Assembly: GCA_022792835.1 (NCBI GenBank)
Contig: JAAWBT010000014.1
Coordinates: 16,590 to 80,589 of the forward strand
Source: Lachnospiraceae bacterium
GTDB lineage: Bacteria; Bacillota; Clostridia; Lachnospirales; Lachnospiraceae
Direction of reading: 5' to 3'
DNA: 64,000 bases
Shown: in pieces, positions 1,123 to 38,182 of the stretch
How the letters are laid out: every line of letters begins with the position of its first letter
Numbering within the stretch: the first letter of the stretch is position 1
Notes under the pieces: model-generated
What the model saw: the letters and a program-made list of their open reading frames with translations, nothing else
Database searches by the model: none
Told to the model about the DNA's origin: nothing
Translations under genes and position numbers: made by a program

Positions 1123-2892
1123 TTACATCCTGTCAGGCGCTTCAAAACCAAGCAGGCCGATACAGGTCTCCAGAACCCTTCTCACCAGCCCCAGCAGACA
1201 GATATAAGCAGCCTGACGTTCCTTATCCTCCTCGGCCATAATCTTTGTCTCATGATAAAACCGGTTAAAGGCATTGGACAGCTCATAAATATACTGGCAT
1301 ATTTTATGGGGCGCCTGTTCCACAAAGGCGGAAAGCAAGGCATCCTGTACCCGGCTTACCATGAGCTGCAGCGCCTTTTCACTCTCCGAGAGGGCCGGCA
1401 GAATCCTCCCTTTACCTGTGGGCTTATCCTCAAGCTCTTCATATTTTGCCTGAATGGATTTGATCCGCACAATGGTATAAAGGATGTAAGGGCCTGTGTC
1501 TCCCTCAAAAGAAATGAACCGGTCCACGTCAAAAATGTAATCCTTGGCCGCCTGGTTGGACAAATCCCCGTATTTTAAAGCTGCAAGGCCAATCATCTTC
1601 GCCGTCTCTTTGGCTTCATCCTCTCCCATGGACCGATTTTCCATGATCTTCTCATAGACGGCGTCGCTGATCTCCCGGATCAGATATTCCAGCCGCATGA
1701 TTCCGCCGTCCCTGGTCTTAAAAGGCTTTCCGTCCCTGCCGTTCATGGTTCCAAACCCCAGAAAGTCTAACTTCACTTCAGGCCTTACAATGCCAGTCTT
1801 CTTGGCACATCGGAACACCTGTGTAAAATGGAGCGACTGTCTTTTGTCTACCACATAGAGAATTCTGTCAGGAGCAAACAGCTTTTCCCGCTCCACCAAA
1901 GTCGCCAGATCTGTAGTGGAATATAAGGTCGCCCCGTCAGATTTCAAGAGAATGCAGGGAGGCACCTCCTTGGCATCCGTCTCTTCTGCCACGTCCACCA
2001 CCAAAGCCCCCTGGCTTTCGTGAGCGAAGCCCTCTGTCTTCATCTGTTCTACCATATCTGGAATATAGCCCTGGGCGTCGCTCTCCTTTTTCCAGATGTC
2101 AAAGGTCACACCCAGTTTTTCATAATTTTTCTTAAGATCAGCCACAGACACATTTAAAATATGGTTCCACAGGGCCAGATATCCCCTGTTCCCGTTCTGG
2201 AGTTTAAAAGTGGCGTCATGGGCCTTCTTCGCGAAAACCTCGTCCACCTTAGATTTGGCACTGGCCGCCGGATAGATCTCTTCCAGCTCCCCGATGGTAA
2301 AAGGCGCCTCTGCCGGATATTCCCCCTTATAATCCTCTTTAAAATAAGGAAGCTCTGGCTGCCGTTCTTTTAATTCCTCGATGATCAGCCCCATCTGGAG
2401 CCCCCAGTCTCCCAGGTGGACGTCCCCGATGACTTTATGCCCCAGGAACCGGGACAAACGTTTCATACTCTCCCCAATGATCGCCGAGCGCAGATGTCCC
2501 ACGTGAAGGGGCTTGGCCACGTTGGGTCCGCCGTAATCAATGATAATGGTCTCCTGCTTTTCCTCTGGGCAGATTCCCAGCTTTTCCTCATTGTCCATCT
2601 GCTCCAGATACTTTGACACAAACCCACCGGAAAGTTTTATATTGATAAATCCGGGATTCACCGCCGTGACTTCTTCGAACACCTCGTTCCCCGAAATCTG
2701 TCCCACCACGTCACCTGCGATCATAATGGGCGCTTTCTTATAAAGTTTTGCCCCGGCCATGGCGCCGTTGCACTGGTATTCACACAGGTCCGGCCTGTTG
2801 GAAAGAGTCACTTTCCCAAGGTTCCTCTCATATCCGCAGTCTGCAAATCCCTGCTCTGTGATTTCTGTAATCAGGTCGATCAGCTTTTTCAT
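1123..2892 (-). CDS. argS: arginyl-tRNA synthetase
   Basis: 589 aa; class I HIGH-like PNVAKPLHVGHLRSAIIGES; typical ArgS C-terminus. Confidence 0.95.
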   Translation of the reverse strand: MKKLIDLITEITEQGFADCGYERNLGKVTLSNRPDLCEYQCNGAMAGAKLYKKAPIMIAGDVVGQISGNEVFEEVTAVNPGFINIKLSGGFVSKYLEQMDNEEKLGICPEEKQETIIIDYGGPNVAKPLHVGHLRSAIIGESMKRLSRFLGHKVIGDVHLGDWGLQMGLIIEELKERQPELPYFKEDYKGEYPAEAPFTIGELEEIYPAASAKSKVDEVFAKKAHDATFKLQNGNRGYLALWNHILNVSVADLKKNYEKLGVTFDIWKKESDAQGYIPDMVEQMKTEGFAHESQGALVVDVAEETDAKEVPPCILLKSDGATLYSTTDLATLVEREKLFAPDRILYVVDKRQSLHFTQVFRCAKKTGIVRPEVKLDFLGFGTMNGRDGKPFKTRDGGIMRLEYLIREISDAVYEKIMENRSMGEDEAKETAKMIGLAALKYGDLSNQAAKDYIFDVDRFISFEGDTGPYILYTIVRIKSIQAKYEELEDKPTGKGRILPALSESEKALQLMVSRVQDALLSAFVEQAPHKICQYIYELSNAFNRFYHETKIMAEEDKERQAAYICLLGLVRRVLETCIGLLGFEAPDRM

Positions 2893-3066
2893 AAATTCCT
2901 CCGTCGAAAATTTTTACACTTTCACTATCCGCTTATTATATACCTTTTTCTCTGGAAAGTACATAGACTTTTTCTGCTTCCCTTTCCATAATTCCAGTGG
3001 TATACTGAAAGAAAACCCGGGCGGGCTTTCGCCCGCACTGCCGGAACTTTTATGGAGGGTAAAATT

Positions 3067-3519
3067 ATGAAGGTAAAGATTCAAGATTTAAAAGATGTGG
3101 CTGTCAAGGGAGTCCATGTGGCGTTCACGGAAACCTGCGAAGCTTACAAAGAAGATTTCTTTGAGTGGACCGCATTCCCCATTGTCACACAGTTCAAGAC
3201 AGATAAGATCATGTCCGGCGTGCTGCAGGGCTGGCATCACACCCCCAATTTCAGCCAAATCGAATACCATGAGGATGCAGAGCAGTTCTTCTTCACCGAA
3301 GGGACTGCCCTTATGCTGTTCATCGACATTGTGGACAAAACGCCTGACATGGATACTGCACAGATTGTCCGCATCCCTGCAGGCACTCAGCTCGACATCG
3401 CTGCAGGCAAGGGGCATTTCGTGGCTGTGGCGGAGGGATGTACCTTCAAGGCCATTGTCGTCTCTCCTGTTCAGGATGCTCCCAGGATGGACCTTCCCGA
3501 GATGGTATGTGGAGAATAA
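3067..3519 (+). CDS. cupin-like / ureidoglycolate lyase-like small protein
   Basis: ATG at 3067 preceded by TGGAGGG; cupin-like EYHEDAEQFFFTEG and later HF; ORF-track start at 3052 looks too early. Confidence 0.55.
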   Translation: MKVKIQDLKDVAVKGVHVAFTETCEAYKEDFFEWTAFPIVTQFKTDKIMSGVLQGWHHTPNFSQIEYHEDAEQFFFTEGTALMLFIDIVDKTPDMDTAQIVRIPAGTQLDIAAGKGHFVAVAEGCTFKAIVVSPVQDAPRMDLPEMVCGE

Positions 3520-3528
3520 CGGGTAATG

Positions 3529-3559
3529 AAAAGCCCCCGGCCATGGCTGGGGGGCTTTT
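3529..3559 (+). terminator. intrinsic terminator
   Basis: AAAAGCCCCCggccatggctGGGGGGCTTTT hairpin downstream of the 3067 CDS. Confidence 0.8.
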
Positions 3560-3582
3560 CAATTTATACCTTATGTTTTTGT

Positions 3583-3806: not shown

Positions 3807-5339
3807 TTACTGATGATAATAACTGAGAAAATCTGCCAGCTTTTCTGTAAATTCCTTAAGCACCCCGACCCTCGGCAGATATACCACCCGGAAATGATCC
3901 GGCTCCTTCCAATTGAATCCGCCTCCGTGGATCAGCAGAACCTTCTTATCCCGCAGAAGATCCAGCACAAACTTTTCATCATCCGTGATATTGAACTTTT
4001 TTGCATCGATCTTCGGGAACATGTAAAATGCTCCCTTTGGCTTCACGACACTGATCCCCGGAATATCCACCAGCGCGTTGTACACACATTCTCTCTGTTC
4101 ATAGATCCGGCCTCCCGGCACCACATAGCCTTCGACGCTCTGGTGGCCGCCCAGGGCCGTCTGCACGATGGACTGGGCCGGTACATTGGAGCAGAGGCGC
4201 ATATTGGAAAGCATTTTGATTCCCTCTATATAATCTTTGGCAATGGCCTTGTTTCCGCTCAAAATCATCCATCCGATCCGAAAGCCCGCGATCATATGGG
4301 ACTTGGAAAGGCCGCTGAAGGTGGTGCAGAACAGATCTGGCGCCAGAGACGCAATGGACACATGCTCTTCCCCGTCCATGACCAGCCGGTCATAGATCTC
4401 ATCGGAAAAAATCATCAGCTGATGTTCCCTGGCAATATCGACGATCTGCTGCAGAACCTCCCTGGGATAGAGCGCGCCGGTCGGGTTGTTGGGATTGATG
4501 ATCACAATCGCCTTTGTCCTGTCCGTGATCTTCTTTTTGATGTCTTCCATATCTGGATACCATTCTGCCTGCTCATCACAGATATAGTGGACAGGCGTGC
4601 CCCCGGCCAGGGTCGCGCTGGCCGTCCACAGAGGATAATCCGGCGACGGAATCAGAATCTCATCGTTGCTGTCCAGCAAAGCGGACATGCACAGGTTGAT
4701 CAGCTCGCTGACTCCGTTGCCCGTATAGATGTCATCCATAGATACATTGGGAATCTTTTTGATCTGGGCGTACTGCATGATCGCCTTCCTGGCGGAAAAC
4801 AGCCCGTTGGCCTGGGAATAGCCCTCACAGTCTGTCAGCTGCCGGCTCATGTCCTGAATCACCTCGTCCGGTGTCCGAAACCCGAAGGGAGCCGGGTTCC
4901 CGATATTCAATTTTAAGATCTGCATCCCCGCCTCTTCCATTCTAGAAGCCTCTTCTACCACCGGACCTCTCACATCATATAGTACATTGTCCAACTTTGA
5001 TGATTTTTTAAATTCCCGCATTTTTCTTCCTCCCAGGACTCTATTTTCTTTCTCTCCACTATCCAGACTTTCCTGCACAGGCAGAAGTTCTATGCCGTCC
5101 GGCTTTAAGGTTTCTGTCGTTTCTCCATCTCTCAGCCATTCTTCCTCCACCTGCAGCGCTTCTGCCAGAAAGCAAAGGATTCTGGCCCGTGGAACGGTCT
5201 TCCCGCTCACATACTGGCTCACATGGCTTTTGCCAAGCTTAACCGCCCGCTCCGAGGCCATTCGGATCAGGTCCGCCTGCTTTACATTCCGCTTCTCCAT
5301 TGCCAGTTTTAGCCTGTCCGCAAAGGTTTTCGTTGACAT
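3807..5339 (-). CDS. XRE-family HTH domain fused to class I/II pyridoxal-phosphate aminotransferase (AlaA-like)
   Basis: N-term MSTKTFADRLKLAMEKRNVKQADLIRMASER...HVSQYVSGKTVPRARILCFLAEAL (XRE HTH), then MREFKKSSKLDNVLYDVRGPVVEEASRMEEAGMQILKLNIGNPAPFGF...NPNNPTGA...SGLSKSHMIAGFRIGW. Confidence 0.9.
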   Translation of the reverse strand: MSTKTFADRLKLAMEKRNVKQADLIRMASERAVKLGKSHVSQYVSGKTVPRARILCFLAEALQVEEEWLRDGETTETLKPDGIELLPVQESLDSGEKENRVLGGRKMREFKKSSKLDNVLYDVRGPVVEEASRMEEAGMQILKLNIGNPAPFGFRTPDEVIQDMSRQLTDCEGYSQANGLFSARKAIMQYAQIKKIPNVSMDDIYTGNGVSELINLCMSALLDSNDEILIPSPDYPLWTASATLAGGTPVHYICDEQAEWYPDMEDIKKKITDRTKAIVIINPNNPTGALYPREVLQQIVDIAREHQLMIFSDEIYDRLVMDGEEHVSIASLAPDLFCTTFSGLSKSHMIAGFRIGWMILSGNKAIAKDYIEGIKMLSNMRLCSNVPAQSIVQTALGGHQSVEGYVVPGGRIYEQRECVYNALVDIPGISVVKPKGAFYMFPKIDAKKFNITDDEKFVLDLLRDKKVLLIHGGGFNWKEPDHFRVVYLPRVGVLKEFTEKLADFLSYYHQ

Positions 5340-5354: not shown

Positions 5355-5439
5355 GTTCAATTTTTCTTCAAAAGTTCAATTTTGGAGTCTTTTAGTTCAA
5401 CTTCACGTGTAGTATAACACAGCACAAAAAAAAGTTCAA
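5355..5439 (-). promoter_or_regulatory. sigma-A-type promoter with four TTGAAC direct repeats upstream of the HTH-aminotransferase gene
   Basis: Minus strand TTGAAC (5439-5434), 17-nt spacer, TATACT (5416-5411). TTGAAC recurs at 5400-5395, 5379-5374 and 5360-5355. Confidence 0.75.
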
Positions 5440-5581
5440 CTTCTGGCTGTACAGAAAAACCATAGAGAGCGGAAAATTTTTCACGTTTCTTATTCGCCCT
5501 ATGATATAATAAAGCTGAAATATAAATCTGAAAATCTGGATATGATTATAACAAGAAGGACAGACGAGGAGGTGTTGGCAA

Positions 5582-33242: not shown

Positions 33243-36200
33243 TCAGTGTTTCACAAGCTCATCCGCCAGCTGATAGATGGCGTCCCGCAGTCCGTTGCGG
33301 TATTTGATCCGGGACAGTGCCTGTACCTGCCGGTCATGGGATAATACGGTATAGCTCTGGCTTCCCTTCGCTATAATATCCTGGATCCGCCCGGTGTCGT
33401 CCAGGTCCCGCTGTCCATATCGATGCCGCTCAAACAGCGCCCGCATTTCTGCGCTGGAAATAATGTCAATGATGCCCCATTTGATCCGGAATTCCTGAAA
33501 GCAACGGTCCAGGCTGACATTGTTTGCCTCCTCGATCACCTTTCCGCTCCCACGTTCCAGTCTGGCCGGGTATTTAAAATTCGGGTCTGCCGGATAAAGC
33601 CCGTTTATGATCGCCTCCGCCGCATTCATGATTCGAAAAGCATATTGCCTGTCTTCCAGCCCACCGGCAAACTGTCTGATTTTCTCTTTTGTCTTACAGA
33701 TGCCTTCTTCGTCTTCCTCATGTACCTGATTCAGAAGCTCTTCCACCAGCTCTGTGAGATAATCATAGTCCACCTGAATGTCTTTTACATGGGTCATTTT
33801 TAATTCGATCTGAAAAACCGGTACATTCCTCTCTTTTGCCAACTCTTGTTTCAATTCATTGCTGAGAACCGAGGTGAGCATAATCTCCTCGTCGGGCTCC
33901 ATTCCCAGGGCTTTGATCAGGTCATCTGGTTCCTCATAGTCAAACCCGATTTTTTCTCCATTGACACACTCCGGATCATATTGTTTCAGTTTTGCCATTC
34001 CCACACTGTACTGTCTGAGCAATTCCAGCATCTGTTCTTTCTGCTTTTCACTTTCCGGTATCTTCTGAAATCCATTTGTCATATTTTTTAACTCGTCGAC
34101 GATTTTACGTACTTCTTCAAAGATAGGAAGAAATGGTTTTGCGATGATTCCGGCCTCTTCATTTAGCTGCTTTTTTGTCTCCTCCGATAGATTCGCCGAA
34201 TCCCGGTTGGCATATATAGCAAGCGCGGCATTCATCAGCTTTTCATTCTGCGCCGGCCAGCGATAGTTGACAATCCTCCCCCAAGGCTTTTCCTGCCGGT
34301 CTGAAATCCGGTTGGTCCTGGAATAAGCCTGGATCAGATTGGCTCCTTTCAGGGTTCTATCCACATAAAGAGTATTGAGTTCCGGAGCGTCAAATCCGGT
34401 CAAAAGCTGTTCCACAACAATTACCAGATCCAGATACTTTCCGTCTTTTGCAGTCCGGTCCAGACGGCTTCTCACATCCTCCGTATAACCCGCCACATCC
34501 TTCACTTCAAATGTTGTGTCAAACTCCCTGTTATATTGAACGATCGCTTCCGACAGACTTCTGTTCGTTTCCAGCTGCGTGTCATGATTGGAAGTGTCCG
34601 GACTGAAGGTGACCGCCACCTTTAATACCGTTTTTCCTTTCTCTCTGTTTTCTGCATTCACCCGCTGAAACTCTCTGTAATACATCATAGCCATGGGGAT
34701 GCTGGCCCTGCCTCCACCCACATGGGTCGTAAACAGGGCGTTATATTTTCCGTCGTTGGAACGGTTTTTCCAGTTTTTAAACACATCCTCCACCACCAGC
34801 CGAATGTGCTCTTCATTCTCATCATAAAAGCTCGGCTCAATGGTGTCATCCATATCTTCCGCTGTCAGATGGCGGATCTTTGTTTCAATCTGCGCCTCGC
34901 TCCACTTGGGGTGACGCATTTTATAGAATCCTGGAAGATACTGGAGACGCATCTTTTCCTCATCAATTGTCGTCTCAAAATCCACCTTAAAACCCAGGAC
35001 ATTTTTATCAGCAATGGCTTCGCGGATCGTATAGGCATGGAGCAGCCTGCCGAAAACCTCTTCTGTCGCAAGTCCTGTGGCTGTCTCATCAAACATCGGG
35101 GTACCCGTATATCCCACCCACAGGGATCGTTTAAATGCCTTCTGGATTGCGGCAAAATACTCTCCCCTGGTACTTCTGTGGGCCTCATCCACAATAAAAA
35201 CAATATTTTTTTCCGGGGATTTAAAATTTTTCCGCTTCACCAGCATTCCTAGCTTTTGTACGGACGTCACAATAATTTTGTTATCCCGGCTCCTTAACTT
35301 CCTGCTTAAGTCCGCCGTACTTTTTGTCTCCCAGACTCCTCCGGCGCTCAAGTGTTCTCCCGTATCGCCGTCCGGATCGTAAGCCTGATACCGTTCGTTC
35401 GTCTGCCTTGTAAGGGCAATGCGGTCAACCACAAAAACCACCTTATCCACATTCGGAAGACGGCTTGCCAGCCATGCCGTTTTAAAACTGGTGATGGTTT
35501 TTCCCGACCCGGTCGTGTGCCAAATATAGCCGATCTTTTTCTTCCCGGATTCAAAATCTGCGTGTTTGACTGCCTCGATCACTTTCTGTGTGGCATGCAC
35601 CTGATAGGGCCGCATCACCTTCAGCGTCTCTCTGTTTTTTGTGCCGTCCAGGATCATATAATTGACTGCCATCTGATGGGCCATGGGAATGCTCAGCATG
35701 GCATCAGCAAACTCCTTCCAACTTCTCACAATAGAATTGTCTTCTTTTCTCTGCCAGTGAAAGGCAAACTCTTTGTTAAATTGTTCCGCTGTGGTATTCG
35801 CCATATACTTCACATTGTTCGGCGTCATTGCAACCAAAATTTGCACGGTGGAAAAAATGTCCCTGTACTGATTTTCATCTATATACTGGTGCATCTGGTT
35901 CAGTGCTTCATTCACATCATGGGTGCCCGTTTTCTCTTCAATCTGAATCACCGGAAGGCCATTGATCAGAAGTGTCGTATCAAAACGCCGTTCCGGTTTT
36001 CCTGCAATTACGGCAGACCGTTTGATCTGATTGACAACCTGATAAACCGTATCCCCCGCCCCGATCTCCCTCTGGTCAAATACAGTGAGAAAAACATGTC
36101 TTCCGTCGTCCAGATCAACCTCGATCTGAGATACCCCATTCAGCCCATATAAAAACTGTCCGGCCTCGTAGGGAGTATGAAGATCCGAGATGATTTTTTT

Positions 36201-36440
36201 TACCTGATTGAATTCAACCACACTGAGCGGGTGTTGCAGAGTGCTCTGATTATGCTGTTCCAAGATTTGTTTAAAATTTTCCCACAAGGCTTCCGTTGTC
36301 TTGATTTTCGGTTCATATTTCCACAACTTTGTTTTTACAAGATAGCTGCCTGTTTCCCTGACTCTGCCACTTTTCCCTCCAGTCATTCTTTTACCGGAAA
36401 GATATTGGATCAGCTCATTCTCAAATTCATTTTCTTTCAT
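33243..36440 (-). CDS. hsdR: type I restriction endonuclease R subunit
   Basis: PVIQIEEKTGTHDVNEALNQMHQYI; HTTGSGKTITSFKTAWLAS; DEAHRS; GYTGTPMF. Confidence 0.95.
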   Translation of the reverse strand: MKENEFENELIQYLSGKRMTGGKSGRVRETGSYLVKTKLWKYEPKIKTTEALWENFKQILEQHNQSTLQHPLSVVEFNQVKKIISDLHTPYEAGQFLYGLNGVSQIEVDLDDGRHVFLTVFDQREIGAGDTVYQVVNQIKRSAVIAGKPERRFDTTLLINGLPVIQIEEKTGTHDVNEALNQMHQYIDENQYRDIFSTVQILVAMTPNNVKYMANTTAEQFNKEFAFHWQRKEDNSIVRSWKEFADAMLSIPMAHQMAVNYMILDGTKNRETLKVMRPYQVHATQKVIEAVKHADFESGKKKIGYIWHTTGSGKTITSFKTAWLASRLPNVDKVVFVVDRIALTRQTNERYQAYDPDGDTGEHLSAGGVWETKSTADLSRKLRSRDNKIIVTSVQKLGMLVKRKNFKSPEKNIVFIVDEAHRSTRGEYFAAIQKAFKRSLWVGYTGTPMFDETATGLATEEVFGRLLHAYTIREAIADKNVLGFKVDFETTIDEEKMRLQYLPGFYKMRHPKWSEAQIETKIRHLTAEDMDDTIEPSFYDENEEHIRLVVEDVFKNWKNRSNDGKYNALFTTHVGGGRASIPMAMMYYREFQRVNAENREKGKTVLKVAVTFSPDTSNHDTQLETNRSLSEAIVQYNREFDTTFEVKDVAGYTEDVRSRLDRTAKDGKYLDLVIVVEQLLTGFDAPELNTLYVDRTLKGANLIQAYSRTNRISDRQEKPWGRIVNYRWPAQNEKLMNAALAIYANRDSANLSEETKKQLNEEAGIIAKPFLPIFEEVRKIVDELKNMTNGFQKIPESEKQKEQMLELLRQYSVGMAKLKQYDPECVNGEKIGFDYEEPDDLIKALGMEPDEEIMLTSVLSNELKQELAKERNVPVFQIELKMTHVKDIQVDYDYLTELVEELLNQVHEEDEEGICKTKEKIRQFAGGLEDRQYAFRIMNAAEAIINGLYPADPNFKYPARLERGSGKVIEEANNVSLDRCFQEFRIKWGIIDIISSAEMRALFERHRYGQRDLDDTGRIQDIIAKGSQSYTVLSHDRQVQALSRIKYRNGLRDAIYQLADELVKH

Positions 36441-37009
36441 ATGCTCACCTCTCCCAAGTAGCCAAGCAAAAGAAGCTTTTCTTCTTCTGCCACTCGTTTC
36501 TTTAAGGCTTCCACCCGCAGCTGCTTCAAATAAATTTCTCCTATGATTCTCTGTCTCTCCAAAGGGGGCAGAGGAGGGAGCTCCAATTCCCTCAACTGTT
36601 TCAAGGTGTATTTCAAAATAGAGGACCCCTGCAGTCCTGCCTGAAACTGTTTTTGAATTCTCCTGTCCTCATTTAAAAGATAAATCAAAAATGCCGGAAC
36701 TACAGAACCGTCTGTAAACATTTTGATGTAATTCTGTGTGTACAGATATCCTTCATGTCTCTTGCTCACCATACAGGCATTTCCCGATATCAGGCTGAAA
36801 ATCAGATCTCCTGCGAAAAGCGTGGACACCTCATCTCTGGTACAGATCTTTTTCCTCTCTCCACAAGTTGCTTCTATTCCAGCCAGATCCCCCAGCAAAT
36901 CATTCTGGCTGTAAATCCAATACACCGGTGCCTGGCTATCGGCGGATTCCCTGATTCGGAATTGAGGGGCACCCCCCACAAGCTTTACATGATTCTTCAA
37001 TCTGCCCAT
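36437..37009 (-). CDS. half-size HsdS-like protein (single TRD)
   Basis: QFRIRESADSQAPVYWIYSQNDLLGDLAGIE...ELELPPLPPLERQRIIGEIYLKQLRVEALKKRVAEEEKL; overlaps hsdR start by 4 bp; ATG at 37009 likelier than TTG at 37027. Confidence 0.7.
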   Translation of the reverse strand: MGRLKNHVKLVGGAPQFRIRESADSQAPVYWIYSQNDLLGDLAGIEATCGERKKICTRDEVSTLFAGDLIFSLISGNACMVSKRHEGYLYTQNYIKMFTDGSVVPAFLIYLLNEDRRIQKQFQAGLQGSSILKYTLKQLRELELPPLPPLERQRIIGEIYLKQLRVEALKKRVAEEEKLLLLGYLGEVSI

Positions 37010-37052
37010 TATTTTTGTGCCTTTCAAAAACTACATTTTCTTTGTCTTTTTT

Positions 37053-37081
37053 AGTATAACACCAACTTCTCCGTCTGTCAA
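37053..37081 (-). promoter_or_regulatory. consensus sigma-A promoter for the hsd/Kiwa operon
   Basis: Minus: TTGACA-gacggagaagttggtgt(17)-TATACT. Confidence 0.85.
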
Positions 37082-37189
37082 TTATAGTTTGTAATTTTAA
37101 TAAATCACATTTTTGTATCTTCATCTGGCATTATACCGTGAAACATGCTATACTATCCCTTAGTTTTGAGCAAAAGGAGGAAAAGCCTT

Positions 37190-38182
37190 ATGACCTGCAG
37201 CCACTGCGGCCTTGAACTGATTGAAAACGCAAAATTCTGTCCCCGGTGCGGCGCTCCTGCCACGCCTCCCCCCAAAACGCCGACACCGCCGCCCGCTCAA
37301 GACGCTTCTACGCCGCCCGCCTGCCAGGTTCCGGTCCGGAAGAAAAAGGGCAGCGCCACCGTCTGTTTTGCTCTCCTCTCCCTCATTCTGGCAGTGGTGC
37401 TGGTTCTTCAAAACCTTGGGATCATCGGCCTGATTGGGGAAACAGACAGGAGCAGCGCCAGAATGCGGATGGAAGGAGCCGGCTATGCTTCTGCCGAAGA
37501 GGCGGTGGAGGCTTACATAAATGCCTTGAAACAAGGGGATGTCCCAGCCGCTCTTTCTACCTTTGCCATTGAGACTTATGTGGACAGCTATGACACGCAG
37601 GCCGGTCTTTTCTATACAGGGGCATGGCTACCGGCCGTCAGTTCTGACGGCACCTATGAGCTCCTAGGCAGTGATTATGAGCGGCAACTCCGGTGTTTTT
37701 CCAGACAGGCCTCCATTACCCAGAAGCTTTACGGACAGCTCATCAATTACTCCGCTTATTTCCAGGAAGAAAAAATTTTTCTCAATAACGAAAACGGAAC
37801 ACCCGTCGCTTTTAGGGAGGAAGAGGACGTCAAAGAATTTCTCCGTGTTTATCGGGAAAGCTCTTTTGGAAAAGCTCTGGCTGAAATGGAACTGAAAGAC
37901 TTCGTGGACCCGAAAGACTTGTGTGAAGCCTATGGGTCTGAAGCCCATCTGAAAAACATGAGTGAGAGGGGGCAGCTCTTTGGCTGTGACGAATATAAAA
38001 GTGTCGCCGCCCGCATAAGCTTAAACGGAGAAACCTGGCTGCTCACCATGGACTGTATATGTTATGGAGGCCGCTGGTATAATCTGAGCCAGTCCAGCGT
38101 CTTGTCTAACATGCTGGGAGCCTCTGTCTACCTGTACGGACTGATCCCTTATTCCATAACAGGAAACAGCCTCTTTCCCTGA
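37190..38182 (+). CDS. zinc-ribbon, single-TM protein with extracytoplasmic domain
   Basis: MTCSHCGLELIENAKFCPRCGAPATPPPK; TM VCFALLSLILAVVLVLQNLGIIGLIG; SD AAAGGAGGAAAA. Confidence 0.75.
   Translation: MTCSHCGLELIENAKFCPRCGAPATPPPKTPTPPPAQDASTPPACQVPVRKKKGSATVCFALLSLILAVVLVLQNLGIIGLIGETDRSSARMRMEGAGYASAEEAVEAYINALKQGDVPAALSTFAIETYVDSYDTQAGLFYTGAWLPAVSSDGTYELLGSDYERQLRCFSRQASITQKLYGQLINYSAYFQEEKIFLNNENGTPVAFREEEDVKEFLRVYRESSFGKALAEMELKDFVDPKDLCEAYGSEAHLKNMSERGQLFGCDEYKSVAARISLNGETWLLTMDCICYGGRWYNLSQSSVLSNMLGASVYLYGLIPYSITGNSLFP

Follow-up and report, generated by a model that had tools for sequence, protein, structure and literature searches.

We identified, on the minus strand of the window (the whole stretch of DNA analysed, 64 kb in length), a gene that encodes a DNA-binding domain in frame with an aminotransferase (Table 1). 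The encoded protein comprises a helix-turn-helix (HTH) domain of the phage CI (XRE) type at residues ~4–72, an unconserved linker, and an AlaA-type aminotransferase at residues 107–510. Pfam recognized HTH_3 at residues 11–69 and the class I/II aminotransferase family Aminotran_1_2; a GntR model found no match in the protein. The aminotransferase half matched AlaA (PDB 4cvq) over its full length (404 residues, E = 5e-171) and the SGLSK/GLSK motif of the PLP lysine is retained in 102 of 105 fusions; by homology, the enzyme half is AlaA. Recognition-helix residues K37, S41, Q42, and Y43 are invariant across 42 fusions. A full-length structure model was good for the HTH and poor for the AlaA half (mean pLDDT 55.5, shallow alignment), and we did not use it for the enzyme. 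AlaA orthologues without the HTH (56–81% identity) occur in the same bacterial family, so that fusion and non-fusion genes could be compared directly.

Table 1 Features of the HTH-AlaA locus, in the direction of transcription (window positions)
Feature	Position	Strand	Basis
Half-site 1, TTGAAC(T), candidate operator; doubles as −35 hexamer of the fusion-gene promoter	5434..5439	-	Sequence; orthologue promoters
Extended −10, TGT-TATACT	5411..5419	-	TATACT 5416-5411, TGT 5419-5417
Half-site 2, candidate operator; shortly past the estimated start of transcription and 39 bp away from half-site 1	5395..5400	-	
Half-site 3, candidate operator; in 5' leader, +21 bp from half-site 2	5374..5379	-	
Half-site 4, candidate operator; in 5' leader, +19 bp from half-site 3, directly ahead of Shine-Dalgarno	5355..5360	-	
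HTH-AlaA fusion gene, 510 aa	3807..5339	-	Pfam HTH_3 + Aminotran_1_2; TP901-1 CI; 4cvq
Recognition helix of HTH, residues 37–45 (KSHVSQYVS)	5205..5231	-	Predicted helix, pLDDT >90
Internal Shine-Dalgarno GGGAGGA in linker	5028..5034	-	Anti-SD pairing over 105 loci
Internal in-frame ATG (Met107), aligned with HTH-less AlaA start; predicted 404-aa free enzyme	5019..5021	-	

Ahead of this gene, four copies of TTGAAC on its own strand were found exactly where the original prediction had placed them, with the first serving, as it had also proposed, as the −35 hexamer (TTGAAC-N17-TATACT); transcription of the fusion gene is estimated to start near position 5404. Dinucleotide-preserving shuffles of the 240 bp 5' of the gene gave an expectation of 0.21 copies of TTGAAC against the four present (P ~5e-5), and for any 6-mer at all to occur four times in these 240 bp the probability was 0.008. 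Over the whole window TTGAAC is without enrichment (23 copies, 39 expected), and it is thus the clustering of the motif, not its abundance, that is unusual and constitutes the signal. Comparison of orthologues refined the conserved unit to TTGAACT(T) with A/T-rich bases on its 5' side. The intergenic stretch contains no inverted repeat, the four copies in the window all being direct; inverted half-site copies are present in 12 of 42 orthologues. The leader was considered as an RNA element and dropped, since an Rfam search gave no match at E up to 1. The prediction had extended control by the repeats to the divergent AlbA_2 gene, and this part found no support: none of 111 other fusion loci has an AlbA_2 relative beside the fusion, and the likely −10 of the gene (TATAAT, 5503–5508) lies ~65 bp from the nearest repeat. 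AlbA_2 was dropped as a co-regulated partner on the grounds of its absence from those loci. On another side, argS and a DUF4867-like gene (window positions 1123–3519) adjoin the fusion here and in one genome of the same genus (L002/L097), and in no other fusion locus examined.

We searched 396 genomes of the family, many of them metagenome assemblies, and found an AlaA orthologue in 98 at E up to 1e-150. Scanning species genomes for the peptide GKS[HQ][VIM]SQY[VL], which under-samples fusions with other recognition helices, returned 394 stretches encoding a relative of the HTH. The best 80 of these 394 were fetched; their sources include Blautia, Roseburia, Mediterraneibacter, Eisenbergiella, Fusicatenibacter, Anaerobutyricum hallii, and others, and in 78 an AlaA part shares the reading frame of the HTH. 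The original prediction had named missing repeats upstream of orthologous fusions as evidence against it. At least two half-sites were found upstream of 93 of 100 Lachnospiraceae fusion genes and upstream of none of 36 AlaA genes that lack it (one of the 36, L069, carries an unrelated HTH), and the autoregulatory operator array proposed for the encoded HTH thereby gains the backing of the orthologue comparison. Counted as TTGAAC, 122 copies lie upstream of 42 fusions (5.6 expected) and two upstream of 35 HTH-less orthologues. A clear array is missing in seven of the 100 fusions (L049, L054, L062, L063, L145, L156, L160), and one fusion has a short upstream stretch only.

Two further observations concern the distribution of such fusions. 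Two genomes of Candidatus Eisenbergiella have two HTH-AlaA fusion genes each (L110/L150 and L137/L154), all with Gln at HTH residue 39. L069 (G279:C6, ~35910–37412) is a second, independent AlaA fusion with a different XRE-type HTH, seen in a single genome. An 18-bp direct repeat of its own, TATCARTATAAAGAAYGG, lies at −112 and −26 and flanks a TTGACA-type promoter; the fusion is possibly a case of the same design by convergent origin.

Promoter geometry is shared by the fusion loci. TTGAAC forms the −35 box in 93 of 105 of them, with a spacer of 17 in 88 of 105; the promoter scan demanded TTGAAC, and the −35 counts therefore describe spacing. Of these 93 promoters, 82 have an extended −10 (TGn). 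The other copies lie mainly 39–43 bp 3' of the −35 copy, the commonest position and shortly past the transcript start, with further copies ~20, 41, and 51 bp upstream. Adjacent half-site spacings in the orthologues cluster near 11, 20, 31, and 41 bp, and helical phasing near 10.5 bp is pronounced (R = 0.53, null maximum 0.22), so that the spacing near whole helical turns first noted in the window holds across orthologues. Judged by this phasing, the half-sites share one face of the helix and span the promoter and early transcript, which is the layout of a repressor. Sites of this kind are concentrated at the fusion gene. All three tandem TTGAACT pairs in the genome of the window (84.5% complete) lie at the fusion promoter, as do 33 of 36 matches to tandem TTGAACTT in 25 genomes; judged on tandem sites, the predicted regulon is essentially the fusion gene alone. 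Away from any fusion gene, an orphan cluster of TTGAACT and AGTTCAA was observed beside an rsmG-like gene (L199; G264:C1, ~3365069).

In a tree of the AlaA part (a quick build with an inferred root), the fusions form one strongly supported group. The HTH label requires five changes on this tree, three of them forced by well-supported branches alone, and its history is most simply read as one gain and about four losses (L007, L008, L066, L067). The array is missing at all four of these HTH-less genes nested in the fusion clade. Independent contrasts run in the expected direction but are few (three on supported branches; sign test, p = 0.25). A lone AAAATAAACTTTT lies ~70 bp upstream of the HTH-less alaA of L007, near the promoter; the fusions among which this gene is nested use ATAAACTT or ATGAACTT, and the lone copy may be the remnant of an operator or a chance occurrence.

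A profile of 42 fusion HTHs searched against PDB matched only the N-terminal domain of the TP901-1 repressor CI (E = 1e-18), and the predicted HTH model had its best fold matches to 5a7l, 3zhi, 8qao, and 3zhm, the last being CI complexed with an operator half-site. The OL operator of TP901-1 is AGTTCATGAAACGTGAACT (PMC4941734). CI half-sites have the consensus AGTTCAYR (complement, YRTGAACT), which phi13 CI binds with high affinity, and AGTTGAYR mutants are bound with low affinity (PMC8516035). The TGAACT core lies within all four repeats of the window; the base ahead of it is T, against R in the TP901-1 consensus, and T is common in related phages. By this match, the TTGAACT(T) unit represents a single half-site of the operators that phage CI uses. 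Upstream regions of 17 cI genes from phages or phage-like contigs, a set that includes the unverified gut phage contig L212, contain 57 half-sites (4.3 expected), with at least two in 16 of the 17, and in many, TP901-1 among these, TTGAAC serves as the −35 ahead of cI. These parallels make it probable that promoter, operators, and DNA-binding domain of a phage cI gene were captured by alaA as one unit; alternatively, the sites may have arisen by later convergence.

L212 (MT838382.1) encodes a stand-alone CI-like repressor at 3161–3562. The promoter of this gene shows TTGAACTTTT in tandem, at a spacing of 22 bp, together with an extended −10, a design shared with the alaA fusion promoters, and the repressor may be related to the donor module. 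The best HTH matches among nominal phage records were in two other unverified gut contigs, both dropped as phage evidence: L210 carries an HTH-AlaA fusion itself and resembles bacterial sequence, and the open frame in L211 stops ahead of any AlaA part.

Half-sites may co-vary with residue 39 in the recognition helix of the HTH. Shifted half-sites (ATGAACT or ATAAACT, the −35 copy excepted) occur in none of 80 loci with His at this position and in 10 of 17 with Gln. Gln39 has some four origins, roughly three of which coincide with a half-site shift (p = 0.25), and TTGAACT is used as well by phage CI proteins that have Ala or Asp at the corresponding position. We take the co-variation as a hint; a one-residue specificity code (His or Gln at 39) was dropped, given four independent contrasts of which about three are concordant.

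The linker, 11–86 residues long, usually ends in Gly-Gly-x-x-Met, with this Met aligned to the start of HTH-less AlaA. Over 105 loci, mean anti-Shine-Dalgarno pairing is −9.4 kcal/mol at the linker end and −3.5 kcal/mol at control sites within these genes. The terminal Gly-Gly is coded GGA-GGN in 61 of 66 cases, whereas in the enzyme body the figure is 131 of 461 (P = 3e-24). Nearly all fusion genomes have a single AlaA at E up to 1e-150 (G062 has two), so that an internal start would be their source of HTH-free enzyme. The gene probably gives two products, HTH-AlaA and free AlaA. That the internal Shine-Dalgarno is an unused relic of the ancestral alaA start strikes us as unlikely: a relic would be expected when a domain is added ahead of an existing gene, but the motif is kept at nearly all of the 105 loci in a linker that is otherwise unconserved, and the GGA-GGN bias also speaks for its maintenance.

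Repeats, promoter, domain homology, half-site match, co-occurrence, and helical spacing together make it very likely that the TTGAAC repeats are operator half-sites and that HTH-AlaA binds the array and represses its own promoter. Against this reading stand the seven fusions in which a clear array is missing, the small number of independent contrasts, and the description of phage CI operators as inverted pairs, whereas the array in the window consists of direct repeats. The arrangement probably goes back to one ancestral event in the Lachnospiraceae, in which alaA came to stand behind a cI promoter and operators of phage origin and was fused to the CI N-terminal domain. The ribosome-binding site that alaA had before would have stayed within the linker, so that free AlaA is probably made as well. 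HTH-AlaA would dimerise via its aminotransferase part, the dimer would contact at least two half-sites along a single face of the DNA, and the bound protein would cover the −35 box and the transcript start and so repress alaA.

Repression rather than activation is what we infer from the positions of the sites. HTH-AlaA could instead bind the array and activate, or activate and repress, in a ligand-dependent manner like GabR. MocR regulators, which have a domain of the aminotransferase fold, recognize direct repeats separated by two or three helical turns and are responsive to PLP or substrates (PMC5320631), and copies do lie upstream of the −35 at some fusion loci. We nevertheless regard this alternative as improbable, as one copy overlaps the −35 and the commonest others lie in the transcribed leader, in the manner of a repressor, and as an activator seems unneeded at a promoter with a near-consensus extended −10. 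A different protein might bind the array, such as the CI of a resident prophage or another XRE protein, with the AlaA-fused HTH incidental or acting elsewhere. Arrays track the fused HTH and not the genome, being absent at AlaA genes without the HTH (including the four nested losses) and almost missing elsewhere in the genomes, and the recognition helix is preserved in the fused HTH; these facts make the involvement of another regulator very unlikely, even though this half-site also serves phage CI proteins of the same type, so that a prophage repressor could recognize the array. It is hardly credible, finally, that the repeats are by-products of the leader or duplicated promoter elements to which no protein binds. 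The leader is AT-rich and one copy is the −35 box, but the excess over expectation at the locus and across the 42 orthologues, and the lack of both an RNA family match and an intergenic inverted repeat, are at odds with such an origin.

Within the preferred reading of autorepression, control by a ligand, PLP or substrates, as the original prediction had suggested, is plausible by analogy with MocR regulators. We also put forward, as a tentative and rather doubtful proposal, that the captured phage immunity module acts as a two-product homeostat: one transcript would yield both the HTH-AlaA repressor and free AlaA, and mixed dimers would let the free enzyme, perhaps with substrates, tune repression of its own promoter and of almost nothing else. 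If autorepression is true, it would represent a widespread control of alanine synthesis in gut Lachnospiraceae that is absent from the open-access literature searched; the same open-access search found no earlier description of the HTH-AlaA fusion. An enzyme would then have acquired a DNA-binding domain from a phage, along with the operators of that domain, and so come to repress its own gene, in parallel to MocR/GabR and separately from them. The conserved internal start would offer a clear example of a single gene from which a regulator and an enzyme without the regulatory part possibly both derive, and the binding prediction is directly testable, as CI-DNA structures already exist.

Compared with known systems, the fusion contains the entire aminotransferase part of the glutamate-pyruvate aminotransferase AlaA (4cvq), including the PLP lysine motif, to which it adds an N-terminal HTH, a linker, and a promoter operator array. 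With TP901-1-type CI proteins (TP901-1, O1205, bIL285, phi13) it shares a homologous HTH, the TGAACT half-site core, and TTGAAC as the −35 of the promoter of its own gene, with apparent autoregulation. It differs from them in that AlaA replaces the helical C-terminal dimerisation/oligomerisation part, in half-sites that are mostly helically phased direct repeats and not the one inverted pair of CI, and in a locus without a Mor/Cro partner gene, the host gene being metabolic. PutA and BirA are trigger enzymes that repress their own genes. Like these, HTH-AlaA is a metabolic enzyme with a DNA-binding domain that would control its own gene, although its DNA-binding domain, enzyme, and origin differ and its internal start may add enzyme free of the DNA-binding part. 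MocR/GabR regulators (GabR, PdxR, TauR) likewise have an N-terminal DNA-binding domain, a flexible linker, and a fold type I aminotransferase domain, and direct-repeat operators at whole helical turns, as in the fusion array (39, 21, and 19 bp). Their HTH is a GntR-type winged HTH, whereas that of the fusion is of the phage CI (XRE) type, which sets HTH-AlaA outside the MocR family. The fusion is further set apart by an enzyme half that is a complete AlaA, usually the sole one of the genome, by a predicted target that is its own gene only, by a separate origin, and by its conserved internal start. On these comparisons, HTH-AlaA is best read as a putative self-repressing trigger enzyme that is analogous to MocR/GabR regulators and not a member of their family.
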